A DNA stretch of 64,000 nucleotides. Source: Bacteroidota bacterium. GTDB taxonomy: Bacteria > Bacteroidota > Ignavibacteria > Ignavibacteriales > Ignavibacteriaceae. The stretch is taken from positions 62,001-126,000 of the forward strand of contig JADFLR010000003.1 of NCBI GenBank assembly GCA_022564295.1, read 5' to 3'. Below are positions 42,807-58,801 of the stretch, piece by piece. The translations under genes were made by a program, and so were the position numbers. Within the stretch, counting starts at the first letter, position 1. Every line of letters starts with the position of its first letter. Below the pieces are notes generated by a model. That model made no database searches. It saw nothing but the letters and a program-made list of their open reading frames with translations, and had not been told where the DNA came from.

Positions 42807-45800
42807 CTATTTGAGTAAAATCATTTTCTTTGTCCGGTTGAAGCCACTTGCTTGTATTTGGTAAAAATAAATTCCGCTTGGCAATGCCGTTGCGTCAAAC
42901 TTAATGGTGTGATATCCAGCGGGTTGATTATCCTTTGTAAATCTCATCACATTGCTGCCTAAAATATCAAAAATTAAAATCCTTACTGAACTTTCATTTG
43001 GTAATCCATAATAAATCGTAGTGACAGGATTAAATGGGTTGGGATAGTTTTGCATTAATTCAAATTGTTCAGGAATAGTGGAATTAAAAATATCTGCTGA
43101 TGTGACTGGTTCAATTGTAAAAGGATCATCACTAGGATCGTTATTTTCCTCATCTGCCACATCTGTTATTTTTACTAACGCCTGTATTGTATGGATTGCA
43201 GGTACAGTCCATAGATAAATACCTGTGCTTGGAGTTGATTCAGTAACAAGATTCCAGGTTGCGCCGTTATTTGAACTAAACTCAATCTTAACATCTATGA
43301 TATCCTTGCTGGACCATGTAATGGATTGTTCTGTACCCATTCCCCAGACTTCACCACCGTTTGGAGAAAGTACAGATATTGTATTATTTGTTCCCCCTCC
43401 TCCCTCGTGATAAAGTTCTAATATTTCTGATTCACTTAGTGCTCGGTCGTATATTCTAACTTGATCCATTTTTCCGGTATATGGGCTACTACCGCTGCTT
43501 GGTTGAGAACCCATTCGAACTAATTGGTGAGGATTGTATATGCTTGGTGCCGTAACAGGATCAACAGCAATTAATACTCCATTCAAATAAAACCTCAACT
43601 CGTTAGCATCTCTTACTCCTGCAATGTGAAACCACTCATTTATCGGTATTTCCGACATTGGAATATGTACTGCTTCCCAAGCGTTGGATAACCAAGCCAC
43701 AATAAAAACCAGATCACCTACATTGATGCTTATAGCGAATCCTGCATCACCGGCACCAGGAATATTCCCTGGCGACCAGTTTGAAATTAAAAAATGTACA
43801 CCTGTGGTCGGTACGTTTTCAACATACATGAAAAGTGCAGCTGTCATTTCTGTATCAAATTCAAAATTAACTCCGTTGGGCACATCGATAAAATCATTAC
43901 CATCAAAATCATATGCGCTATTGGGGTTCTCAAACCTATCATTTGTTAGTGTAGCACCTGAGACAATTCCATCATATCCATTACCACTTTCATCGTTTGC
44001 ATTTCCGTTAAATGGATAATAGGCAACTAATTGATTTGTTTCTTCATTATACAGGTCTAAGACTTCCTCATCAGTAAGTGCGTAGTCATAAATTCTAAGG
44101 TTGTCAATTTCACCAGCCCACGATTGATGAGTTTGAAACGAACCACCAACTGCATCTTGATCCTGACCAATGATAAAACCTCCTAAATCAACATTCAGTG
44201 CATTACTTTGTACAGCTACCCCATTTCCAATTTCTAATCCATTAACGTAAAGCCTTGCAACAGATCCGTTCCTGGTGACTACAAAATGATGGAACTGATT
44301 ATCCTCAATAGTTGCATCGTTATTAAAAAAAGCTTCTGCATTAATCCCAATTGACCATTTGTCCATATTTGCACTGTATGCGATAAATAACTCGGTATCA
44401 GTAAAACTATTAGCACAACTTACCCAAGAATTCCAGGGATTTCCTGGACCACCAGAAGTATGGAGAGTATTTATTTTTAAAATTGATGAAATAGTAAAAT
44501 CATTTAACCCGTTAACAACTGAGTTCGGGAGTGATAGCGCATCTAAATCATTATTCCCCAAAAGTAATGTACCATCGGTAGTTGCGTTCCCTAATAAAGT
44601 CCCGTGGTATCCATTACCACTTTCATCGTTTGCATTTCCGTTAAATGGGTAATATGCAACTAAACCATTCCCACCTGTCCATCCTCCCTCGTGATAAAGC
44701 TCATCTATTTCAGACTGACTCAGTTCACGGTTATATATTCTTACATCATCAATTATTCCTTTAAAGCGACTACCATTAAAATCTATTCTTCTTCCTAGTT
44801 TCAATTCAAATGCGTTTCCTATAAGTGGCTCTGTTAAATCCATTACTTTAGCTTCAGAATTTATATAGACGGTTGTTGAGCCGGTTACATCAACATTTGC
44901 AACCAGATGATACCAGGTATCTAAATTTGGAATAATGTGAGTATTATATTCAACAAATCCAGATCCAAAAACCTCAGTAGATATAGCGAAAATAATTTCT
45001 CCGGTAGCGCCGGTGTAAAGTCTATACCCACCCCCACCATTTACCGGATATCCTTGTTTGTCAAAAATATGTGTACCAGAATTTGAGGCTATATCCCATT
45101 TAGCCCATACAGAAATAGCATAAGAGTGGTTTGTAAAATTAAAAGGTTCGCTACCCAAAATAATTTCGTCATCAATGCCATCGAAATAGTATGCACTATT
45201 AATATTTTCAAATCTGTCATTAGTTAACACAGCTCCAATAACTATTCCATCATTACCATTACCGCTTTCATCGTTTGCATTTCCGTTAAACGGGTAGTAT
45301 GCAACTAAATCATTATCTCTTGCTACATCAGAAATTCTCACTTCATCAATTAAAACATTTGCATTTACTGGCACTATGCTTCCTTTAAAAGAAGCAATCC
45401 TTATAGTATCAACTTGAAAATATGCATTGATAAATACTGTGTATTCTTGTTCGATTCCATTTATATACATTTTTGTGTTATTACCATCATAGGAAGCCAT
45501 TACGTGTACCCACTCATTTAATGGAATGAGATTATTAACCTCGCAAATGTTCCAATTGTTTCCATCACGTCTAAGTATTTGAAGATGTCCCTTACTTCCA
45601 AAAGATCCAAGAGACAAAACATACTCATCCAATTTTATGATATTCGTAGCACCTTCAAAATAAATGTCGGTTTTAATCCAGGATTCCATAGTAATCGGAT
45701 CACCGCCAACAATATTTAGAGATGAAGTATATGGCAAAGTAATCCCCAAATCAGTATTGTTGTTTGGATATGTCCTTCCTCCAAAAAACTTCCCCTCTGA

Positions 45801-46001
45801 TGGTTGATTTCCGTTTATAGTTCCGTGGTTTTGATACTGGCTTTCATCGTATGCTATATTACCAGATGTTTCGTTTAAGTGAAGAAGTAAAACTGTATTT
45901 TCATCTGGTTCATATTCTTCGGTTTGCACTTGGCCAAATGTTCCATAACACGCTAATGTAACAATAAATTGTACCTGAATGATTGTAAATAAATATTTCA
46001 T
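42807..46001 (-). CDS. Secreted four-LamG-domain protein with T9SS sorting tail
   Basis: 1064 residues. Signal peptide at 1-23. Four LamG/concanavalin-like domains lie at about 35-232, 236-445, 452-650 and 655-870, each with the WYHLVANVD / WVHVMASYDG / WFHIAGVRD type strand and ending VRIYNRELSQSEIDELYHEG or similar. The last three begin with the nearly identical sequence LVAYYPFNGNANDESGNG. An Ig-like domain (VLSPNGGEVWGMGTEQSITW, about 885-965) precedes the sorting tail (QNYPNPFNPVTTIYYGLP ... KKMILLK). LamG domains commonly bind sugars; the ligand here is unknown. Domain duplication is recent enough to be visible as about 50-bp DNA repeats. Confidence 0.87.
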   Translation of the reverse strand: MKYLFTIIQVQFIVTLACYGTFGQVQTEEYEPDENTVLLLHLNETSGNIAYDESQYQNHGTINGNQPSEGKFFGGRTYPNNNTDLGITLPYTSSLNIVGGDPITMESWIKTDIYFEGATNIIKLDEYVLSLGSFGSKGHLQILRRDGNNWNICEVNNLIPLNEWVHVMASYDGNNTKMYINGIEQEYTVFINAYFQVDTIRIASFKGSIVPVNANVLIDEVRISDVARDNDLVAYYPFNGNANDESGNGNDGIVIGAVLTNDRFENINSAYYFDGIDDEIILGSEPFNFTNHSYAISVWAKWDIASNSGTHIFDKQGYPVNGGGGYRLYTGATGEIIFAISTEVFGSGFVEYNTHIIPNLDTWYHLVANVDVTGSTTVYINSEAKVMDLTEPLIGNAFELKLGRRIDFNGSRFKGIIDDVRIYNRELSQSEIDELYHEGGWTGGNGLVAYYPFNGNANDESGNGYHGTLLGNATTDGTLLLGNNDLDALSLPNSVVNGLNDFTISSILKINTLHTSGGPGNPWNSWVSCANSFTDTELFIAYSANMDKWSIGINAEAFFNNDATIEDNQFHHFVVTRNGSVARLYVNGLEIGNGVAVQSNALNVDLGGFIIGQDQDAVGGSFQTHQSWAGEIDNLRIYDYALTDEEVLDLYNEETNQLVAYYPFNGNANDESGNGYDGIVSGATLTNDRFENPNSAYDFDGNDFIDVPNGVNFEFDTEMTAALFMYVENVPTTGVHFLISNWSPGNIPGAGDAGFAISINVGDLVFIVAWLSNAWEAVHIPMSEIPINEWFHIAGVRDANELRFYLNGVLIAVDPVTAPSIYNPHQLVRMGSQPSSGSSPYTGKMDQVRIYDRALSESEILELYHEGGGGTNNTISVLSPNGGEVWGMGTEQSITWSSKDIIDVKIEFSSNNGATWNLVTESTPSTGIYLWTVPAIHTIQALVKITDVADEENNDPSDDPFTIEPVTSADIFNSTIPEQFELMQNYPNPFNPVTTIYYGLPNESSVRILIFDILGSNVMRFTKDNQPAGYHTIKFDATALPSGIYFYQIQASGFNRTKKMILLK
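43978..45305. repeat. Three about 50-bp direct repeats at LamG domain boundaries
   Basis: Copies at about 43978-44030, 44612-44660 and 45257-45305 share the block CATTACCACTTTCATCGTTT (one copy with GC in place of AC) followed by GCATTTCCGTTAAA. They encode the YYPFNGNANDESGNG start of successive LamG domains. Their near identity contrasts with the more diverged domain interiors, pointing to gene conversion or recent duplication. Confidence 0.75.
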
Positions 46002-46102
46002 AGCAGCACTCCTAATTATTGAAATTTAAATAGGGCAACCAAGTATCCGCCTTTTATTAATTAATACGAGTCTGATTAGATAACTACTTCATCAACATCA
46101 TC

Positions 46103-46122
46103 CCTGCCTACCGGCAGGCAGG
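46103..46122. repeat. Intergenic GC-rich near-perfect palindrome
   Basis: CCTGCCTACCGGCAGGCAGG is its own reverse complement except for one pair, in an otherwise AT-rich 137-base gap between the LamG gene and the YCF48 gene. It sits 17 bases after the stop of the gene at 46139 and could act as a transcript-stabilising or terminating hairpin. Its type (short GC palindrome) is common as a dispersed element. Confidence 0.7.
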
Positions 46123-46138
46123 TTCTTTGTCCGATAAA

Positions 46139-48190
46139 TTATTTTAACAAAATCATCTTTTTTGTCTGGTTGTAGCTACCTGCTTGTAATCTGTAAAAGT
46201 AAATTCCACTCGGCAATGTTGTTGCTCCGCCCGTGGCGGAAAACTCAACTTTAAATCTACCAGCTTCTTTTTCTTCGTTTACTAATTGATTTACTTTCTC
46301 TCCCAATGTGTTATATACAACCAACTCAACTTGTGATTTTACCGGCAAGCTGTAGCTTATAGTTGTCACAGGGTTAAAGGGATTTGGGTAGTTTTGCTGC
46401 AATGCAAAATCTGTTGGTGCAGGGTTTGTTACTTCTACTACATCACTATATTCATAACTTCCATCATAGTCTATTTGTTTTAATCTGTAACTGAGTGAGG
46501 TTGCTTGGATATCACTTATATCATCAATGAATTGATAGTTCTGTATTTCCGTTGTTGTGCCGTGTCCTTCAACATAACCTATCGTTGTAAATTGTCCGTG
46601 TTCTATTCTTCTTTCAATTTCGAACATCTGGTTGTTTGTTTCAGTAGCTGTTGCCCAGTTAAGAGTTACTGTACCTTTAGATGTTGATGCAGTGAATGAA
46701 GTTAATTCTACCGGAATTACCCCACCAGTTGTTGTTCTCAGGATTGTTCCCCAGTCGCCCACAACGGTACCGTTATATGAATCGGTAAAGCTGACACTAA
46801 GCAAAATTTCAGTAGTTCCGCTTTCTTGTAATATCCAGTTTGCACCACCGTCAGTAGTTCTTAGGATTGTTCCATTCCTTCCCACAACCGTACCGTTATT
46901 TGAATCAGTAAAGCTGACACCTGCCAAAAATTCTGTTGTTCCGCTTGTTTGTGATATCCAGTTTGTACCAGCATTGGTGGTTCTTAATATTGTTCCATTT
47001 CCACCAACAGCCGTACCATTATCTGTATCGGTAAAGCTGACACACCACAATACATCTGTTGTGCCGCTTGTTTGAGGATACCAGTTTGTACCGCCGTTAG
47101 TAGTTCTCAAGATTGTACCTTGACCACCCACAGCTGTGCCGTTATCTGAATCGGTAAAGCTAACGCCAAAGAAGGAATTATGAATAAAAGGAAAAGAGGC
47201 CCCTGTTCCGCTTGTTTGTGATGTCCAGGTTGTACCGCCGTTAATAGTCTTTAAGATTGTTCCATTAAAGCCCACAACCGTACCATTATCTGTATCGGTA
47301 AAGCTGACACCAGACAAAACTTCTATTGTTCCACTTCTTTGCGGTGTCCAGGTTGTTCCGCCATTTGTTGTTCTGAGGATTAATCCTACATAAGGATCAT
47401 GCGGGACACCCCCCACAACCGTACCGTTTTTTGCATCGGTAAAGCTGACTGAATAAAATTCATAATTGTATCCACTAAATTGTAGTGTCCAGGTTGTACC
47501 GCCGTTAGTTGTTCTAAGAATTATTCCATTATAACTATAGCTGTAGCCCACAGCCGTTCCGTTATCTGCATCGGTAAAGCTAATACCATACAAATCTTCT
47601 GTTGTTCCGCTTTCTTGTGTTACCCAGGTATTACCCCCGTTAGTAGTTCTTAGGATGGTTCCACCCCATCCCACAGCCGTTCCGTTATCCGAATCGGTAA
47701 AGCTGACACCATACAACCGTGTTGTTGTTCCGCTTGTTTGTGATGACCAGAATGTACCACCGTCAGTAGTTCTTAGGATTGTTCCACCCCAACCTACAGC
47801 GGTGCCGTTATCTGTATCGGTAAAGCTGACACCAGTCAACCGTTCTGTTGTTCCGCTTTCTTGTGTTATCCAGGTATTACCGCCGTTAGTAGTCCTAACG
47901 ATTGTTCCACCCCAACCTACAGCGGTGCCGTTATCTGTATCCGTAAAACTGACACCAGTCAACCGTTCTGTTGTTCCGCTTGATTGTATTTTCCAGGTTG
48001 TTCCTCCGTCAGTAGTTCTCAAGATTGTTTTCGCATCACCAACAGCCCAGCCTGTTAATTCGCTTACAAAATCAACGGATCGTAATGTATTATTCTGGGG
48101 TAATGGATTTTGCCAAAACCAACCTTGCTGTGTAAGGGTAATAGGTTGGAATAAAAGAAATGCAATAAAAAGTAAAAATAAGTTTTTCAT
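46139..48190 (-). CDS. Secreted protein of eleven YCF48-type repeats with T9SS sorting tail
   Basis: 683 residues. Signal peptide at 1-21 (KNLFLLFIAFLLFQPITLTQ). Eleven tandem repeats of about 41 residues follow (core GVSFTDTDNGTAVGWGGTIL, RTTNGGNTWVTQESGTTE), then the linker VELTSFTASTSKGTVTLNWA and the sorting tail from about residue 596. The repeats are so alike at DNA level that copy-number change by recombination is likely. It is the closest intact relative of the broken gene at 38626. An AGGAGG site precedes the ATG. Near the C-terminus a 15-bp palindrome (46226-46240) adds about four residues to the tail. Confidence 0.85.
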   Translation of the reverse strand: MKNLFLLFIAFLLFQPITLTQQGWFWQNPLPQNNTLRSVDFVSELTGWAVGDAKTILRTTDGGTTWKIQSSGTTERLTGVSFTDTDNGTAVGWGGTIVRTTNGGNTWITQESGTTERLTGVSFTDTDNGTAVGWGGTILRTTDGGTFWSSQTSGTTTRLYGVSFTDSDNGTAVGWGGTILRTTNGGNTWVTQESGTTEDLYGISFTDADNGTAVGYSYSYNGIILRTTNGGTTWTLQFSGYNYEFYSVSFTDAKNGTVVGGVPHDPYVGLILRTTNGGTTWTPQRSGTIEVLSGVSFTDTDNGTVVGFNGTILKTINGGTTWTSQTSGTGASFPFIHNSFFGVSFTDSDNGTAVGGQGTILRTTNGGTNWYPQTSGTTDVLWCVSFTDTDNGTAVGGNGTILRTTNAGTNWISQTSGTTEFLAGVSFTDSNNGTVVGRNGTILRTTDGGANWILQESGTTEILLSVSFTDSYNGTVVGDWGTILRTTTGGVIPVELTSFTASTSKGTVTLNWATATETNNQMFEIERRIEHGQFTTIGYVEGHGTTTEIQNYQFIDDISDIQATSLSYRLKQIDYDGSYEYSDVVEVTNPAPTDFALQQNYPNPFNPVTTISYSLPVKSQVELVVYNTLGEKVNQLVNEEKEAGRFKVEFSATGGATTLPSGIYFYRLQAGSYNQTKKMILLK
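46226..46240. repeat. 15-bp palindrome inside a T9SS tail (copy 1)
   Basis: TCCGCC-CGT-GGCGGA, a perfect 6-bp stem with a 3-base loop, encoding part of SATGGATTLPSG where other tails here read DATALPSG or AKGLPSG. The same element is at 48310-48324 in the next gene. Confidence 0.65.
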
Positions 48191-48222
48191 AACTCCTCCT
48201 GTTAAACTTTCTCTCTTAAAAA

Positions 48223-50688
48223 TTATTTTAATAATATCATTTTTTTTGTATCAACAAAACTTCCAGATTGCAACCTGTAAAAGTAAATACCGCTTGGTAA
48301 TGTTGTTGCTCCGCCCGTGGCGGAAAACTTAACTTTATATCTTCCAGCTTCTTTTTCTCCGTTTATCAATTGTGTTACACTTTCACCCAATGTGTTGTAT
48401 ATAACTATCTTAACTTGTGATTTTACTGGTAAGCTGTAGCTTATAGTTGTAACCGGGTTAAAGGGATTAGGGTAGTTTTGATGTAAGGCAAAATCAGTTG
48501 GTGCAAGGTTTGTTACTTCCACCACTTCACTATATTCATAGCTGCCATCATAGTCTAATTGTTTTAATCTGTAGCTGAGTGATGTAGCTTGTATATCACT
48601 AACGTTATCTATGTATTGATAGTTCTGTATTTCAGTTGTTGTGCCGTGTCCTTCAGCAAAACCAATTTTTTCCCAAACAGAATTGTCCTGCTTTCTTTGG
48701 ATTTCAAATCCAAAGTTATTTAATTCTGTTGCAGTAGTCCAACTTAATGTTACTGAATTCTCAAATACATTGGCGGTAAATGAAATCAGTTCTACTGGAA
48801 TTATTATTTCTGCAATGTTACTATAATCTGAAACAGTATCCTGAGAAAAAGCATATATTCTGTAGCAAAATGTATCAACAGGAATTACAAAATTTGTATC
48901 TTCATAAAATGTTACATTTGCTGCAACTGAATCCAGAGTTTCAAAACTTCCTAATCCCGCCGTATCACGCTCAATTACAAATCCAAGTTCATTGATAGAA
49001 CTTTCCTGCCAATTTAATACAACAGAAAAAGGTGGACCGCCAAAAAGTTGACCAACCAAATTTGTTGGTGCTGGAAGTATTGTTGTAACATAAGACACAT
49101 TACTATACCCCGATTGACCGGAAATATTAAATGCACTTATTCTGTAATTATAGCTTACCCCCTGACTTACAGTGCTATCAATATAAGATGTAACATTTGC
49201 ACCCACACTGTCTATAACTGCAAAGACCAGTAAGGTTACATTTTCCCTTTCAATAATATATCCATCTTCATTATTGGAATTATCTGTCCAGTTGAGTGTT
49301 ACCTCATCTACACCTGTTGCCTCGGCAGTTAAGTTACCTGGAGATGTTGGTACGGTTGGATTTGTTATTGCACAATCCTCATTCGAGTATCCTGAATTTC
49401 CTCCTGTGTTGTATGCCCTTACTCTGGAACAATACTCAGTGTTTGCCGTTCGTCCTGTGTCCTGATATGTCGTTACATTAGCTCCTACTGTTGCTATCTC
49501 AGTATATACTCCTCCAGGTCCTAGTTTTCTCTCTATCCTGAATCCGTCTTCATTGCTAGAGTTATCTGTCCAGCTCAGATCTATCTGTGTTTGACTGACT
49601 ACTGTGGCTGCAAGATTCGTTGGTGAGTTAGGTATATTAGTGGGATCCCAGTAAGTGGTGTTAATCTCAAGACCTAAATCTTCCCATTTGCTACCTCTAA
49701 TAACGTAAGGGGAACCTGTACCATCGTGTACGAGGAATAATCCAAGAGGAAAAGAAGTACCCAAACTAAGATTAGTTACATCGATGCCATCTGTATTGCC
49801 TACCCCTGTTACCTGAACCGTCTTTACAAAATTATGAGGAGCCTGGCGTTCATATACCTTAAAGTTATCGCTACCCTGACTTGATGCCATAAGGTATCCA
49901 TTCCCCTGTGATGAATAATAAATTGTTATGCCTTCTACATCTGCCGTTAATCCATTTACACCGGTTGGAGCAATCAAAACTCCGATGGGATTTGGATCAT
50001 TTGGCTCAGCATTATATTTATATATTCCCTCGCCTTCATTAGCTGCGTATAATATTCCCAATTCATCATCTGCCACCAATCCTTCTGTTTTATCACCTGA
50101 GCCGTTATTCCAGGTACGTTTTAGCAAACCGCCAATCGTACCGTCTCCATTATCAACCAACTCCCATTGCTTCATCTGTGTTGATTGACTTGATGCTATC
50201 GCATAATATTTATCTGTCATTAGACTACGATATAAGCAGAAGCCATAATTATTTCCTGTCATTCCGCCATCACTAAAGTTGCTGACAAAAGACAATTGTC
50301 TTGTAGTACGGTCTACTTTGTAAAAAACAATTGTCCCATTAGTCCGGTCATTATAACCCACGATATCTGTGGGGACACCGGATATCATAAAATTATATCT
50401 GATATCGATATTACCAGGCTTTCCCGGGACATCGATTGTCTGAAGTACATTTCCGGATAAATCATATACAAAAAGTTTATTTGCTGCTTTATCTGAAGTT
50501 ATAATAGTACTCAGAGATTTGTTACTGTGATGAATCCAGATACACATATCATCCTGATCAGCAATGCCGGGAGTGTTTAATGTAAGAGTTGGGTTTACAA
50601 CAGTTTGAGCATATAACGAAATGCCCATCATAATAGGAAGAGATATTAAAGTAAATAATATCTTAATAAAATACTTTAGCCTTATCAT
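48223..50688 (-). CDS. Beta-propeller phytase-like protein with fibronectin III domains and T9SS tail
   Basis: 821 residues from the ATG at 50688 (a GTG at 50712 would add 8). Signal peptide at about 1-28. Residues about 30-345 match beta-propeller phytase: DQDDMCIWIHHSNKSLSTII, GPGKPGNID-like strand turns, KTEGLVADDELGILYAANEG, DVEGITIYYSSQGNGYLMAS and SQGSDNFKVYERQ, with the acidic residues that bind calcium and phosphate. Three fibronectin III domains (about 350-640) and the T9SS tail follow. Family enzymes release phosphate from phytate outside the cell; activity here is inferred. About 110 bases around its 3' end are duplicated at 40030-40140. Confidence 0.88.
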   Translation of the reverse strand: MIRLKYFIKILFTLISLPIMMGISLYAQTVVNPTLTLNTPGIADQDDMCIWIHHSNKSLSTIITSDKAANKLFVYDLSGNVLQTIDVPGKPGNIDIRYNFMISGVPTDIVGYNDRTNGTIVFYKVDRTTRQLSFVSNFSDGGMTGNNYGFCLYRSLMTDKYYAIASSQSTQMKQWELVDNGDGTIGGLLKRTWNNGSGDKTEGLVADDELGILYAANEGEGIYKYNAEPNDPNPIGVLIAPTGVNGLTADVEGITIYYSSQGNGYLMASSQGSDNFKVYERQAPHNFVKTVQVTGVGNTDGIDVTNLSLGTSFPLGLFLVHDGTGSPYVIRGSKWEDLGLEINTTYWDPTNIPNSPTNLAATVVSQTQIDLSWTDNSSNEDGFRIERKLGPGGVYTEIATVGANVTTYQDTGRTANTEYCSRVRAYNTGGNSGYSNEDCAITNPTVPTSPGNLTAEATGVDEVTLNWTDNSNNEDGYIIERENVTLLVFAVIDSVGANVTSYIDSTVSQGVSYNYRISAFNISGQSGYSNVSYVTTILPAPTNLVGQLFGGPPFSVVLNWQESSINELGFVIERDTAGLGSFETLDSVAANVTFYEDTNFVIPVDTFCYRIYAFSQDTVSDYSNIAEIIIPVELISFTANVFENSVTLSWTTATELNNFGFEIQRKQDNSVWEKIGFAEGHGTTTEIQNYQYIDNVSDIQATSLSYRLKQLDYDGSYEYSEVVEVTNLAPTDFALHQNYPNPFNPVTTISYSLPVKSQVKIVIYNTLGESVTQLINGEKEAGRYKVKFSATGGATTLPSGIYFYRLQSGSFVDTKKMILLK
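48310..48324. repeat. 15-bp palindrome inside a T9SS tail (copy 2)
   Basis: The same TCCGCC-CGT-GGCGGA sequence as at 46226-46240, at the same place in the sorting tail of the phytase-like gene. The aligned gene at 40062 lacks it and is 12 bases shorter at this point, so it is an in-frame insertion that has been copied between tails. Confidence 0.65.
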
Positions 50689-50715
50689 TTTATTTCTTTT
50701 ATTGATTATCACAAT

Positions 50716-50875
50716 TTATTTTAATAAATATTTAACAAGCATCATTTTCTTAGTCTCTTCAAAACTCTGTCCTGAACTTGTCGAAGGATCACCTGCCCGT
50801 TGTCTGCTTCAATAAGGAGTTGGTATAAAAATGCGAAAGAAGAACGATAAAAATAAAACTGTAAAAGTTTTTCAT
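50716..50875 (-). pseudogene. Internally deleted T9SS-protein gene (only both ends left)
   Basis: An ATG at 50875 with a perfect AGGAGG site 5 bases upstream starts a 28-residue signal-peptide-like sequence (MKNFYSFIFIVLLSHFYTNS) ending in TGA at 50791-50789. About 40 bases later, in another frame, the reverse strand reads ETKKMMLVK, the typical last residues of a T9SS tail, followed by a stop at 50716. The whole middle of the gene is missing, and a dispersed repeat (50770-50788) sits at the junction. Confidence 0.7.
50770..50788. repeat. Dispersed palindromic repeat at a deletion junction
   Basis: TCCTTCGACAAGTTCAGGA on the reverse strand, with partly self-complementary ends (TCCT/AGGA, CTTG/CAAG). 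I recognise this motif as a widely scattered repeat in many bacterial genomes. It occupies the point where the gene remnant 50716-50875 lost its central part. Confidence 0.6.
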
Positions 50876-51190
50876 AATATCCTCCTAAATGTTTAATGAA
50901 ATAAACAGGTAGTAATCTTGATATGTTAGATTATAAGAAGGTAGAGTATTCAATTTGATTGTCCTGAATAATTTGAAAGTCAAAATTCGAGAACTAACCA
51001 ATTAGATGAGCAAAAATCATCCCGTAGCAAAACCCCCAAAAGACTAAAAATTAACTGTAATGCTTGCTAAGTTTTGAGAATAAGAAATCTTATGATGTCT
51101 AAGAATGAGATGGTAATACCTACTTTGGATGAAAACATAAACTTAACAATTGCAAGTAATAAAAAACCCTGAGATTATTCAGCACTTATT
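50876..51190. other. Gene-free gap
   Basis: AT-rich stretch of 315 bases between the gene remnant and the next T9SS gene. It holds the AGGAGG site of the remnant at its left end and a weak terminator-like hairpin at 51161-51182 (CTGA/TCAG, then GGG and six T on the transcribed strand) serving the gene at 51191. I see no open frame or RNA gene in it. Confidence 0.5.
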
Positions 51191-52372
51191 CTACTTTAAT
51201 AAAATCATTTTTTTTGTTTGAACAAAACTGCCCGCTCTAAGTTGGTAGAAATATAATCCCGAGGATATTCCTCTTCTATCAAAATTAACCTCGTATTCAC
51301 CTGCGGGTTTTTCTTCATCAACCAAAGTTGCTACCTCATTTCCAAGAATATCATACACTTTAAGAATTGCATACTGTCTACTGCTTAATGCATACTTAAT
51401 CTTCGTGCTTGGGTTAAACGGGTTTGGATAATTCTGTTCTAATGCAAATTCATAAGGTGGATTAACTTCAACTTTAAGCGGACCATATATATCAACTACT
51501 GCAGCAAAACCCAAAGTAACATCCTGAGACCACCAACCCCAGTCATCCTCAGGTGGTTGGTTTGGATTACCATCACAGTAAAATTTAAAAAGTGAGTATT
51601 GGTTAACACCGCCATTACCTACCGAAGTACCTCTAAGTTCTACTCTACTTTCACCTAATGAAGATGTATTCTTAAGAACAACCCCAAAAATTGTTCCTGC
51701 AGTTATTTCAGGGTAACCTAAAATACTCAAATCTATGAACTCATATGTAATACCAACACTATCGGCAATTGGTGTGAAGGGGAAACCGGCTCCACCATCA
51801 CTCCAGATATTAGGTCCAAACGGAGGAAGATGTCCATTTATGCTTAACCAGCCACTTGATGTGATATCGAAGAAAGCGAGAGCACTATCGTGACAGCCAT
51901 CAGGACTTTGAAAATATCCCCACAACTCATTATTCAAATATTGTAATGAATCCACTGGATAACCGCTCTCGATTATTTTCATCTCCAGGACAGCAACGGG
52001 GTCATAGGCACTGTAAAAACTGAAACCCACTTGCTGTAGATAAAGTTCGGCAGGTGCTTCAAACCATTGTATTAATACATCCTGACCAAGAAAACCAAGG
52101 TTGGAACCATATGAAATTGGATTATATGGATCGGCGATTGTATAAAGTGTATCAATATAATTTAACCGGTCATTAGTATATGAGAGATTCTCAGTTACAT
52201 TTTGATTAACCCGGATTCCTTGTTTGATCCTTTTTGTATACTGAACTTCCAGGTTATCTGAATTCTTTATATGCTTTACAAGCTTGCTATCCGGCAAAAT
52301 GATAACTTCCTGCGCATATAAAAATGCAGGTAAAATTGTTAAAGCTAACAAAATAGTTGTAATTATTAGCAT
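51191..52372 (-). CDS. Secreted T9SS-tailed protein, function unknown
   Basis: 393 residues. Signal peptide at 1-20 (LIITTILLALTILPAFLYAQ). The middle (about 60-300) is beta-rich with many Gly, Pro and aromatic residues (QWFEAPAELYLQQVGFSFYS; GLFGV-like strands) and resembles carbohydrate-binding jelly-roll modules in general appearance, but I recognise no specific family. The sorting tail starts at about 312 (EQNYPNPFNPSTKIKYALSS, VYDILGNEVATLVDEEKPAG, GLYFYQLRAGSFVQTKKMIL). It is followed by a weak hairpin terminator. Confidence 0.78.
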   Translation of the reverse strand: MLIITTILLALTILPAFLYAQEVIILPDSKLVKHIKNSDNLEVQYTKRIKQGIRVNQNVTENLSYTNDRLNYIDTLYTIADPYNPISYGSNLGFLGQDVLIQWFEAPAELYLQQVGFSFYSAYDPVAVLEMKIIESGYPVDSLQYLNNELWGYFQSPDGCHDSALAFFDITSSGWLSINGHLPPFGPNIWSDGGAGFPFTPIADSVGITYEFIDLSILGYPEITAGTIFGVVLKNTSSLGESRVELRGTSVGNGGVNQYSLFKFYCDGNPNQPPEDDWGWWSQDVTLGFAAVVDIYGPLKVEVNPPYEFALEQNYPNPFNPSTKIKYALSSRQYAILKVYDILGNEVATLVDEEKPAGEYEVNFDRRGISSGLYFYQLRAGSFVQTKKMILLK

Positions 52373-52425
52373 AATCTTCTCCTTCTATTTATATTGTATA
52401 AAAGAGGCTGATTAAACCCATTTGT

Positions 52426-54339
52426 TTATTTCACTAATATCATTTTCTCAGTCTCGATAAAATTTCCTGCTTTCAGTTGATAGAAATAAACTCCGCTGCT
52501 CAGAATACTATTCTGAGCTATGTTGAACTCAACCACATAACTTCCAGCAGGTAATTCTTTGTTAACGAGGGTTGCAATTTCGTTTCCGAGAACATCGTAA
52601 ACTTTTAAACTCACAAATTGCTTACTGCTTATTGCATACTGGATTCTGGTGCTTGGGTTGAATGGATTCGGGTAGTTTTGTGAGAGTGAAAACTCTGTAG
52701 GCAAATTTTGTGTTTCATCTTCAACCGAAACAACTGTAGTATCGCCGTAAACTACGCCGTTTATAATGCAGCCCTTAAGAACGATCCAGGTATCTCCAAA
52801 ATCAAAATAACTGTAAATGCTGTCGAGACCTATATCCTGAGTTAAAGAATAAACAGGGGGATGCAAAATATATTGCTCAAAGACTTTTTTGGGTTTGTTT
52901 AATCCCCATTTCTCAAATGTTATTTCATCAAGCACGGTCGTGTGGCTGCCAGGATAATATCCCATTCTATAGCTATTAACCGTATCTCCAACTTCTGCCA
53001 AAAGATCATCCAGTAAATATTCATTTTCAGTTAAACCCGGGTTTTCTAAATATCTATAAACTTTTCCCTCCGATGAATCGATTCTTTCAAGAACATCTTC
53101 TTCCCAAACTGTCTCGTCTTTTAAATAATAATAGTGTTTACCATTTGCTGCTATTGTATCTCTCAAAACTTCTTTAACTAAAATGTGATGTGAATAATGT
53201 GGGTATGGATCATAGGTGACGGTAGTCTCATCATAAATCCACTTATTGCCAATTGCCAAAGGATAGAAATTCAAAATTTCATCCGGGATTGGCAAGTTTT
53301 TTATTATCAGCATTGTATCAGGAGTGATTTCATAAATTTTGTACTTCGTTGCAGCGTAAAGTTTATCAGAGTTTGGTTTTTTGTATATGCCGACAATGTT
53401 TCTATCCAAACTTTTATAGAGGGTGAAATTATTTCCGAAATCTGTGGAGAGGAAGATGTTTTTTCCATCTGCAAGGTAAACCTCTCCGGTTACGGATTTA
53501 TTATTAGAGATAAATATTTGAGTTGGAGATGTGTATTTAGTCGCCCATGAAAAAGCTTCTCCACTATTTGAGGAGACTTTCAATTCATATTCTCTCGTAA
53601 AGAAGCTTCTTGTTACCCTGTATATATGATTTGCATTCTGGTCATAATGATATTGCTGCTCCTGGTAAGTCATTGAGGTATCAACTAGATAATAACTATT
53701 GCCGCCATTAGTTGTTTTGTACAATTTTTTAGTAATCTCATTACGCGCAAGGAAGATCTGATCGTTCGATGGATTTAGTGAAAGCATCTCAAATATATCA
53801 GGTAGTCTTTCCCAGTTCCAACCTCCATCTGTGCTTCTTATTGTACCTATGAAACCTGAACTATCAAAAACATTTACGCGTGCATAAAGTAGACTATCGT
53901 TCTGACTCGATATTTCAATTAGATGAACGACTCCACCTTTATCATAAGTGTTTTCACTATCAAATCTTTGTATGAAGGTCTGTTCATTTAAAATTGTAAT
54001 CTGCGTTGCACCGCCATAGATGTAGTATGATGGGTTATCTTGTCAAAAGTTTAAATCTGCTATAACAAAGTCTTCCGGATAATAATAAATTGAATCAAAT
54101 CGCATATAACTTTCAAGAAACAAGGTATCTTGTTGGTTAAGAAGATCAAAATGATAAATATTATTACTTGAATTGGTCCAATAGTTAACGGAATCGTATG
54201 AAGTAGTGTAAATCCTGTAAAACAAATGAGTGTTGCCGGATTGATCCTCCATTCCCTTTAACTCAGAGAATTGAGGTGAGACGTTTTGAGAATGTGTTGC
54301 TGCTGCCGATAACAAAATAATAATTATTATTCTTTTCAT
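52426..54339 (-). pseudogene. T9SS-tailed sensor-like protein gene with one in-frame TGA
   Basis: One frame of 638 codons runs from the ATG at 54339 (MKRIIIIILLSAAATHSQNV) to the stop at 52426, interrupted only by TGA at 54045-54043 (codon 99). Both sides align along their whole length with the intact neighbour at 54352: HLFYR / NIYHFDLLNQQDTLF before, and IYGG, IRSTDGGWNW, YKTTNGGNSY, YPLAIGNKWIYDE and the T9SS tail after. At the stop the neighbour reads FFNDDPTKFIYGG and this copy F*QDNPSYYIYGG, so a single change such as TGG to TGA would explain it. No frameshift. The signal peptide piece alone could still be made. Confidence 0.85.
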
Positions 54340-54351
54340 TTTTATCTCCCT

Positions 54352-56223
54352 TTATTTTAATAGAAGCATTTTTTTAGTTTGAATAAATATGCCGGCTCTT
54401 AGTTGGAAGAAATATATGCCGCTACTCAGAAAACTATTCTTAGCTGCAATGAATTCAACTTCATATTCTCCTGCGGGTAATTCTTCATTAACCAAAGTTG
54501 CAACTTTGTTTCCAAGAATATCATACACTTTAAGAGTTGCATACTGCCTGCTGCTTAATGCATACTTAATCTTCGTACTTGGGTTAAACGGGTTTGGATA
54601 ATTTTGTGAAAGCGAAAACTCTGTTGGCATATTTGGTGTTTCATCTTCTACAGAAACCACTGTTGTATCGCCGTAAATAACACCATCTATTATGCAGCCC
54701 TTTAGAACATTTTTAAATCCTACCAGTTCCCATATATACTCGTATGTTTTTCCTAATCCATTTACCAATTCCAATTGCTGAGTGGGAGTTTGAGTTTGTA
54801 TAAAAGTTCTTTTTCTTGAATTTAAGCCGAAGATAGTTACTGGTTCCTCACTCTCTAAATAAATTCCGTTACCAACGGGAATTGTGTCTCCAACTTCTAC
54901 AATCAAATCCATATAAAGTTCTTCGTAAAGCAAACTATCGTCTTCAATCCAGGAACGGTATATTTTACCAACAGTTGAATCGACACGGAAATATTCGGAA
55001 TGAGTTCCTGAATTACCTGAAGTATCAATTGGTATTTCAGTAACAGAGATTTCATTAAAGACCTGATTACCAATTATCTTATGATTCACTACCTCTAAAA
55101 TTGAAATCCATCTTGATGAGTCTCCAAAATCACCATAGAAAGTGTTATTATAAACCCATTTATCTCCAAGATTCAAAGGATACCAGGCAAAAGCTTCTTC
55201 CGGTATAGGTAAGCTCTTTATTACCTGAATCGTATCCGGAGTGATCTCGTATATGCGAAAGAGAGTGGATGCATAAAGGATATCTGTACCACTCTTTTTA
55301 TATAATCCCGTCACTTTCTGTTCAAGTTCTTTGTATAATGAAAACATGTTTCCAAAATCTGTGGATTTGTAGATACTCTTATTATATGAATAATAAATCT
55401 CTCCTTGATATTGTTCATCCAGGGTAAACCACATCTTACCGGGTGTGGTAAGCATTAAATTCCAGGTGAACGGATTACCGTTGTCATCAGAAATCAGTAA
55501 AGCACTTTCATTTGCTGATGCAGCAATACCGTAGATATGCTGTCCGTCTGCATCGTAGTACAATTCTTTCTCATAATTCCAACCCCAATGTATATCATCA
55601 TCCACTATAATATAACTTTGTCCTTCATCTTCAGAACGGGCAAGTTTATTCTGATCTATACCGTAAATTTGTGAATCGTCATTTCTGCTGAGGGAAATCA
55701 TTGCATCATCAATTAGGGCAAGACTATCTAAATTGATCGTGAAATTGTAACCGCCGTCAGTTGATTTATAAAGACCTGGGCCTAATGCAGCATAAACCAG
55801 GCTATCGTTTTGTTGAGATATCTCTATATCAGTTATTCCACCAAAAGATGGTATTTGAATTTCACCATCGTACCGCACAATTATTGCAATAGGGTCTATC
55901 CACAAATCATATCCTCCATAAATAAATTTTGTTGGATCATCATTGAAAAATTCATAATCGTAAACATAGATTCCTTCGCAACCCGAACCCGGATACACTA
56001 TATACCCAAAATCGGGAATGAAAAGAGTGTCAATATTATTAATCAGATCAAAGTGATAAATATCCTTCTGCCAACAACTTGTGTTCGTACCACTATGCCG
56101 ATAAAAAAGATGTGTGTTTCCGAGTGAATCCTCCAAACCCCTTAACTCAAACAAGTGAGGGATGTTTTGTGAAAATGTATTAGATGTGAAAATTAAAAGA
56201 ACAAATAATATAACTGCTTTCAT
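54352..56223 (-). CDS. Secreted T9SS-tailed protein with BNR-like and C-terminal beta domain
   Basis: 623 residues. Signal peptide at 1-18 (KAVILFVLLIFTSNTFSQ). BNR-like strands occur at about 155-330 (GLYKSTDGGYNFTINL, LARSEDEGQSYIIVDD, SIYKSTDFGNMFSLYK), then a block beginning WYPLNLGDKWVYNNTFYG (about 345-510) that is shared with the broken neighbour, then the sorting tail from about 538 (QNYPNPFNPSTKIKYALSS ... KKMLLLK). It is 12 bases from the start of that neighbour, a tandem duplicate. Biological role unknown. Confidence 0.8.
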   Translation of the reverse strand: MKAVILFVLLIFTSNTFSQNIPHLFELRGLEDSLGNTHLFYRHSGTNTSCWQKDIYHFDLINNIDTLFIPDFGYIVYPGSGCEGIYVYDYEFFNDDPTKFIYGGYDLWIDPIAIIVRYDGEIQIPSFGGITDIEISQQNDSLVYAALGPGLYKSTDGGYNFTINLDSLALIDDAMISLSRNDDSQIYGIDQNKLARSEDEGQSYIIVDDDIHWGWNYEKELYYDADGQHIYGIAASANESALLISDDNGNPFTWNLMLTTPGKMWFTLDEQYQGEIYYSYNKSIYKSTDFGNMFSLYKELEQKVTGLYKKSGTDILYASTLFRIYEITPDTIQVIKSLPIPEEAFAWYPLNLGDKWVYNNTFYGDFGDSSRWISILEVVNHKIIGNQVFNEISVTEIPIDTSGNSGTHSEYFRVDSTVGKIYRSWIEDDSLLYEELYMDLIVEVGDTIPVGNGIYLESEEPVTIFGLNSRKRTFIQTQTPTQQLELVNGLGKTYEYIWELVGFKNVLKGCIIDGVIYGDTTVVSVEDETPNMPTEFSLSQNYPNPFNPSTKIKYALSSRQYATLKVYDILGNKVATLVNEELPAGEYEVEFIAAKNSFLSSGIYFFQLRAGIFIQTKKMLLLK

Positions 56224-57060: not shown

Positions 57061-57142
57061 TCACGTGTGAAACGAAGTGATCTCATTATTCAAGTTACTA
57101 AAAAAGATTGCTTCGTCGATTCTCTCCTCGCAATGACACTCA
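57061..57142. repeat. Dispersed repeat of the GCTTCGTCGATTC...CTCGCAATGAC type
   Basis: The sequence AGATTGCTTCGTCG, a few bases later CTCCTCGCAATGACACTCA, and the adjacent GTGTGAAACGAAGTGATCTC form a repeat recognisable from many bacterial genomes; translated on the reverse strand it gives ECHCEERIDEAI, a sequence familiar from spurious gene calls. It lies downstream of rlmB-hisS in a gap without genes. Confidence 0.65.
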
Positions 57143-57243: not shown

Positions 57244-57279
57244 TGTATACGGACCGATCTTAAACAGTTCAGGATACAT
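57244..57279 (-). pseudogene. Possible N-terminal fragment of prolipoprotein diacylglyceryl transferase
   Basis: From an ATG at 57279 the reverse strand reads MYPELFKIGPYT, which is what the first residues of Lgt look like in many bacteria. The similarity stops after 12 residues, where the palindromic repeat begins. If correct, this is the stump of a displaced or deleted lgt; an intact copy would be needed elsewhere. Twelve residues is very little, so this is a weak call. The 410-base gap 57024-57433 holds otherwise only the two repeats. Confidence 0.3.
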
Positions 57280-57433
57280 CTATGTTTTTATGAGATTTAT
57301 TATTTGGTTGATATCATCGAGAGGAAGGATTTGCTGTTCACCGGATCTCATATTTTTCAAATTCGTCTTGCCATAGTTTTATTCATTACTATAGATATTA
57401 TGTTTTACAATATTAAAATTTATATTTCTCTTC

Positions 57434-58801
57434 CTAATGCCAATGACAATATTTTGAACCAGGTTGTGCATATTTCTTGCAATGTTTGCCTTTTGTTGTC
57501 ATCCAACCACATTGCTGCCTGACTTGGGAAAGGAATTTCCGAATATCTTTAATAATTATTTTGTCATTTTCTTCGCTCTTTATTTTTATTATTTGTTCTA
57601 CACTGCTATACATATCCTTAACATTAATCTTTTGTTCCGAATATTCATCTCCACCAACAAATAATGTTATCTTGGCTTTCATTCTGTTAGCCTCTCTCAT
57701 TTGAGCTTTAACACTACGTTGCAAATAATCAAATTCAACCTTAAGATTATGCCTCCTCAATTTAGAAGCAAGATCACTTACTTCAGATTCGAGGTTATTA
57801 TCCAGTCGTATGATATAAATGTCAATACAATTTTCTCGAATCGGAAAACTTCTTTCATTTTCGCAGGCAAGAAGGATACGTTCCATTCCTGCAGCAAAGC
57901 CAACAGCGGGAGTAGATTTTCCGCCAAGCTTTTCAACTAACAAATCGTATCTTCCGCCGCCTAACAAGGCGCTTTGTGCACCAACGCTTCCGCTTATAAT
58001 TTCGAATGTGGTTTTAGTATAGTAGTCTAATCCCCTGACTAATTTCGGATCGACTTCAAATGGGATATTAACTTTGGTTAGATATTCTTTAACCAACTCA
58101 AAATCTCTTTTGCTTTCTTCGTCAAGATTCTGAATAAGTGTGGGTGCTCCTTCGAGCAGTTTTTGATCGCTTTCAATTTTGCTGTCGAAAATTCGCAATA
58201 TGTTTTTATCAAATCTCTTTCTGCTGTCTTCCGAAAGTTTATCTTTTTTATCTTTCAGAAATTCTCTTAATAAATTTTTATAGCTTTCTCTTGTTTCGGG
58301 AATTCCCAAAGAATTTATTTTAACAGTTAAATCTTTTAAACCAAGTGCTTTTAAAATATCGTAAGCAATTTGTATTAATTCACCATCGAGTAATGGTGAA
58401 GCGCTTCCAATTGCCTCACCGCCAAATTGATGAAACTGACGGAGTCTCCCGGCCTGGGGCCTCTCCTGTCTGAACATCGGGGAAATGTAAAACAGTTTAT
58501 TCAACGATTGCTGTGCGCCGAGTGAGTGTTCGATAAATGCTCTTACAACACCTGCTGTCATTTCGGGTTTAAGTGTTACATTTGTTCCGCTTTTATCTTC
58601 AAACGTATACATCTCCTTGCCGACTATATCTGTTTCTTCTCCAATGCTTCTTGCAAAGAGAGAAGTTACTTCAAATACCGGTGTCCTTATTTCTTTATAA
58701 TTGAAATTTGAGAATATATTTTTAACAATACTCTCAAGGTAATGCCAGCGTGGTGCGTCGGATGGAAGTAAATCTTTTGTGCCTTTAATTGCTTTTATCA
58801 T
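57434..58801 (-). CDS. hisS: Histidyl-tRNA synthetase with C-terminal Cys/His zinc-finger-like tail
   Basis: 455 residues; about 425 is usual. Class II motifs are complete: motif 1 around NYKEIRTPVFEVTSLFARSI, motif 2 YISPMFRQERPQAGRLRQFH, the histidine-specific GLDYYTKTTFEI and GGGRYDLLVEKLGG, and motif 3 AVGFAAGMERIL. After the anticodon-binding domain ends (IIIKDIRKFL) an extra 30 residues carry C431, C441, C452 and H455 in the pattern CxxxTxxGxxCxxxAxxGxxxCxxH. This looks like the small Cys/His module known as DUF5763 (from memory), here joined in frame to HisRS. Confidence 0.95.
   Translation of the reverse strand: MIKAIKGTKDLLPSDAPRWHYLESIVKNIFSNFNYKEIRTPVFEVTSLFARSIGEETDIVGKEMYTFEDKSGTNVTLKPEMTAGVVRAFIEHSLGAQQSLNKLFYISPMFRQERPQAGRLRQFHQFGGEAIGSASPLLDGELIQIAYDILKALGLKDLTVKINSLGIPETRESYKNLLREFLKDKKDKLSEDSRKRFDKNILRIFDSKIESDQKLLEGAPTLIQNLDEESKRDFELVKEYLTKVNIPFEVDPKLVRGLDYYTKTTFEIISGSVGAQSALLGGGRYDLLVEKLGGKSTPAVGFAAGMERILLACENERSFPIRENCIDIYIIRLDNNLESEVSDLASKLRRHNLKVEFDYLQRSVKAQMREANRMKAKITLFVGGDEYSEQKINVKDMYSSVEQIIKIKSEENDKIIIKDIRKFLSQVRQQCGWMTTKGKHCKKYAQPGSKYCHWH

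Follow-up and report, generated by a model that had tools for sequence, protein, structure and literature searches.

The window, by which we mean the whole 64,000-nucleotide stretch of DNA analysed here, contains a histidyl-tRNA synthetase (HisRS) gene, hisS, whose reading frame continues past the usual end of the enzyme into a tail that carries a Cys/His module; beyond its stop codon lie a second, untranslated hisS 3' end (copy B) and a stub of lgt2, a divergent lgt paralogue (Table 1). The order aminotransferase, PTS EIIA-like gene, hisS, (lgt2), rlmB is common to relatives. With ~100 kb between the locus and the end of its 220 kb contig, the tail is no contig-edge effect. Positions 42807-56223 of the minus strand are occupied by a run of large secreted proteins sharing a sorting-like stretch at the C-terminus (NYPNPFNP...KKMILLK); relatives of these proteins stand in tandem, in varying copy number, downstream of rlmB in congeners.

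Table 1. Coordinates of the features at the hisS 3' end, in window positions
Feature	Position	Strand	Remarks
hisS, histidyl-tRNA synthetase, 455 aa	57434..58801	minus	TIGR00442, E 2e-146
hisS 3' end copy A, codons about 391-420, translated, diverged	57542..57630	minus	5-32 percent identity to congeners after codon 395
hisS C-terminal tail, residues 421-455, short helix extension plus Cys/His module	57437..57541	minus	beyond the C-terminus of relatives' HisRS
C-C-C-H module, C431..H455 (C-x9-C-x10-C-x2-H)	57437..57511	minus	all nine family-invariant positions kept
Spacer of about 40 bases separating copy B from the tail's stop	57391..57433	minus	no convincing hisS homology
Copy B, untranslated second hisS 3' end in another frame, reading SNE, stop, NYGKTNLKNMRSGEQQILPLDDINQIINLIKT, stop	57280..57390	minus	aligns to relatives' hisS 3' ends
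lgt2 stub, first 12 codons (MYPELFKIGPYT)	57244..57279	minus	directly after the copy B stop

The body of the enzyme is that of an ordinary bacterial HisRS. Residues 4-405 match TIGR00442 with 487.9 bits, well over the curated cut-off of 286.75, the core motifs RGLDYYT and GGGRYD are present at invariant columns of the HisRS alignment, and the anticodon-binding domain (PF03129) spans residues 328-407. With this full catalytic core and anticodon-binding domain the protein is 69-79 percent identical to its congeners, yet it differs from them in the divergence of its last strand and helix, in ~33 extra C-terminal residues that end in the module (455 residues versus 416-428 for HisRS of the genus and family), and in the second hisS 3' end downstream. 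No other HisRS is encoded in the genome: hisS gives the single TIGR00442 match over the cut-off, and the next matches, far below it, come from contig C45, where an open frame of 648 aa presumably encodes threonyl-tRNA synthetase. A second HisRS that would relax constraint on hisS is ruled out, and, as the sole HisRS of the genome with intact catalytic motifs, the enzyme would have to charge tRNA-His in the ordinary way.

A Cys/His module at the end of HisRS

The hisS product ends in IRKFLSQVRQQCGWMTTKGKHCKKYAQPGSKYCHWH, and its last 35 residues, RKFLSQVRQQCGWMTTKGKHCKKYAQPGSKYCHWH, are rich in Lys/Arg/His and hold the pattern C-x6-G-x2-C-x3-A-x2-GS-x-Y-C-x2-H, with the Cys/His residues at C431, C441, C452 and H455. 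We built a profile HMM from 26 modules of other genomes, leaving out the window's own; among the 1,269 window ORFs it retrieved the hisS ORF (E 5e-7), no other ORF falling below E 0.5, and it scored the real tail at 31.9 bits, versus 15.1 bits for the best of 20,000 shuffles. In an alignment of six modules, the window's included, 6/6 share the residues C, G, C, A, G, S, Y, C and H without variation, so that by these positions and their fixed spacing the tail belongs to the C-terminal Cys/His module of Ignavibacteria. Given the leave-out score and the clear homologues in other proteins of family relatives, the tail module is real and far above chance. The earlier note, made from the sequence alone, had described a Cys/His pattern fused in frame to HisRS, foreign to the standard enzyme and known from other bacterial proteins. 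All of this is borne out: the tail is part of a single 455-aa ORF, begins after the point at which relatives' enzymes end, lies outside the HisRS models, and has counterparts mostly in secreted proteins of the same class. The note's statement that no linker separates the two parts is not strictly correct. In an AlphaFold model computed with nine homologues, an otherwise normal two-domain enzyme, the last anticodon-domain helix is predicted to span residues 413-430 and to continue into the tail, and the module starts only at C431. Residues 431-455 have no confident structure in the model (pLDDT under 50), since no aligned sequence covers the tail. From four Cys/His residues at the family spacing, the tail is probably a small metal-binding knuckle.

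Searched against Pfam, the tail matched no family over its cut-off. The best match, of a 50-aa piece, was to zf-TRM13_CCCH (PF11722; 16.6 bits, E 0.006, against a gathering score of 20.9), and NCBIfam HGG_STG gave 18.2 bits against a cut-off of 29; the Cys/His spacing of both resembles that of the tail, but both matches are weak and below their curated cut-offs. The nearest Pfam model of the module is PF19067 (DUF5763). This family and the un-modelled C-x3-T-x2-G-x2-C-x3-A-x2-GS-x-Y-C-x2-H modules of Ignavibacteria agree with the tail in spacing, in the nine invariant residues (C, G, C, A, G, S, Y, C, H) and in lying at the very C-terminus. The module proteins of relatives score 30.3 (a secreted protein of G051), 17.0 (G014) and 12.4 bits (G033) with this model, the first exceeding its gathering score of 26.3, whereas the window tail gives no match at E up to 10. 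The tail further differs in reading CGWMT in place of the usual C[KQ]A[IT]T, and in its host, a cytosolic tRNA synthetase where theirs are secreted proteins. Searches for a further copy of the tail elsewhere in the genome, for a solved structure of the module and for structured RNA found none.

Matches to the module profile occur in 67/391 genomes of the class and 26/395 of the phylum. Nearly all hosts examined carry an N-terminal signal or lipoprotein signal, as judged by eye, and in most of them the module sits 2-6 residues from the C-terminus. They include small coiled-coil lipoproteins, proteins with a 'TKTGKKYHxxxC' stretch and one secreted protein resembling DNA/RNA non-specific endonuclease; among the module hosts seen, the window HisRS is the only cytosolic housekeeping protein.

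The tail is absent from the HisRS of all five congeneric species (5/5), from every matching HisRS in the family (63 of the 80 genomes had one), the order (134 of 164) and the phylum (259 of 395), and from 17 named HisRS loci on GTDB contigs. Apparent extensions of HisRS in the sampled genomes and loci run across stop codons. By the nearest of the named loci, the organism belongs to the Ignavibacteriaceae. The absence in congeners, order and phylum rules out a conserved HisRS domain of the order; conservation in the order was a check that the earlier note had proposed. The literature searched held no paper on DUF5763 and no description of a HisRS with such a tail, in line with the note's impression that such a tail is undescribed. 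In seven genomes of the family (G007, G011, G014, G017, G029, G031 and G036), matches of only ~30-36 percent identity (open frames of 466-555 aa) take the place of the bacterial HisRS, which suggests that hisS was replaced by a distant form in several genera.

A second hisS 3' end and the origin of the fusion

Copy B came to light when the 150 bases that follow the stop codon of the tail were read in the remaining frames. It ends in TNLKNMRSGEQQILPLDDINQIINLIKT and a stop codon, begins 40 bases past the tail's stop and abuts the start of lgt2 (ATG TAT CCT GAA CTG TTT AAG..., translated as MYPELFKIGPYT). Its hisS homology begins at about 57390-57399, and the identity of the spacer before it is at or near background for most of its length. 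Relatives' hisS products end in ...INLKNMKTGEQ..., and in G004, G034 and G066 the hisS stop is followed directly by the lgt2 start, MYPxLFKIG; copy B therefore keeps the usual hisS-lgt2 junction.

Only 12 codons of lgt2 are left in the window genome, and a stub like it in the sister species (G002), the paralogue having decayed in both. An intact lgt is encoded at G000:C19:38352-39080, with a broken 3' fragment at C19:30328-30552. Just after the stub, at 57124-57137 (minus strand), stands a dispersed-repeat-like sequence, GTCATTGCGAGGAG, present in one copy in the window; its region has a 34-base match (88 percent) at G000:C10:98889-98922.

In a phylogeny, the catalytic domain of the window HisRS groups with that of G002 (SH-aLRT 97, end branch 0.075), and its divergence is similar to that of the neighbouring genes, which are 76-86 percent identical to those of the sister species. 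These results show the body of hisS to be native and rule out transfer of the whole gene. The anticodon domain has a much longer branch (0.46 versus 0.075). A wholly foreign anticodon domain is not claimed, as at third codon positions the identity to G002 remains ~60 percent as far as codon 395, and another HisRS (L007) has a similar branch ratio. By best DNA match copy A is nearest G002 (34/54) and copy B slightly nearer other species (37/54, versus 35/54 to G002), so which of the two is ancestral is not proven. Tandem duplication alone fits poorly, because the non-coding copy B is relative-like beside a strongly changed coding copy A; an insertion or a one-sided homologous recombination is favoured. 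No donor of the tail was found among the sampled genomes, phage or plasmid sources gave weak matches only, and no convincing terminal inverted repeats or clear mobile-element signature was seen at the locus.

We consider it probable that the tailed gene is a lineage-specific fusion, made when recombination or an insertion altered the 3' end of hisS, in which the enzyme works ordinarily and the tail has little or no new function. Incoming DNA would have brought the tail, and perhaps also the adjoining diverged copy A, to the 3' end of hisS, pushing the original end out of the reading frame and leaving it as copy B. The resulting enzyme would still charge tRNA-His in the ordinary way, with the tail hanging off the last anticodon-domain helix as a small, probably metal-binding knuckle.

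This origin can be made more specific, and we hold the narrower form tentatively: copy A and the tail may have been taken together from an unsampled relative that possessed a tailed HisRS, by a recombination that was homologous at one end and illegitimate at the other. Recombination of this type has been described (PMC3240628). The divergence of copy A, but not of the catalytic domain, from congeners, and the leftover copy B in place before lgt2, are consistent with such a donor. However, no sampled genome has a tailed HisRS, the nearest DNA match of copy A is the sister species, and the third-position identity to that species holds up through codon 395.

Readings of the tail's function

Many synthetases carry appended domains, and the main functional alternative to a fusion of little or no new function is that the tail serves as an appended zinc finger adding tRNA/RNA affinity to the anticodon-binding domain. 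In favour of this reading, none of the four putative metal ligands or of the module's invariant positions has been lost, basic residues abound in the tail, the sub-cut-off match to TRM13, a tRNA methyltransferase with a CCCH finger, indicates a knuckle of related type, and the anticodon domain has the longer branch noted above. Yet the tail occurs in one species only, the relatives of the module are mostly secreted proteins rather than RNA binders, long anticodon-domain branches are seen in other HisRS such as L007, and the structure search yielded no solved module; we judge this reading unlikely. Of the roles that the earlier note had offered (RNA binding, metal sensing or localisation), no evidence was found for any; RNA binding and metal sensing are possible but unsupported. 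As no conservation supports selection, the default is that the tail, known from one genome, is a tolerated passenger. A bolder reading, which we regard as improbable, is that a zinc knuckle captured from a secreted protein tunes the RNA binding of the synthetase or links histidine charging to zinc; the capture might then have been caught early, since the displaced gene end is still visible.

Two explanations would make the tail an artefact or an accident. A misassembly or chimera joining a module-bearing gene to hisS might be suspected from the draft state of the assembly (59 contigs) and from the dispersed repeat about 300 bases downstream, but the position of the gene deep inside its contig, the native gene order on both sides and the single occurrence of the tail in the genome make it very improbable. 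Chance readthrough once the original stop had been lost, the case that the earlier note named as refuting, is matched in that close relatives have no tail, but the degenerate sequence expected there is not what we see: the module scores far beyond shuffles, and the 3' end with its usual stop and lgt2 junction persists downstream in another frame, so that a bona fide module and an intact untranslated copy B before lgt2 point to recombination or insertion and leave readthrough with practically no chance.

Collectively, the HisRS tail is a real and apparently one-off gene fusion, joining two known kinds of sequence by a known type of event. The case shows that an unusual tail, met with in one genome only, does not have to represent a conserved functional domain. 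The locus clearly illustrates the gain of an appended module by an essential synthetase, and, because the displaced hisS 3' end is still readable beside it, the mechanism of domain capture is visible.
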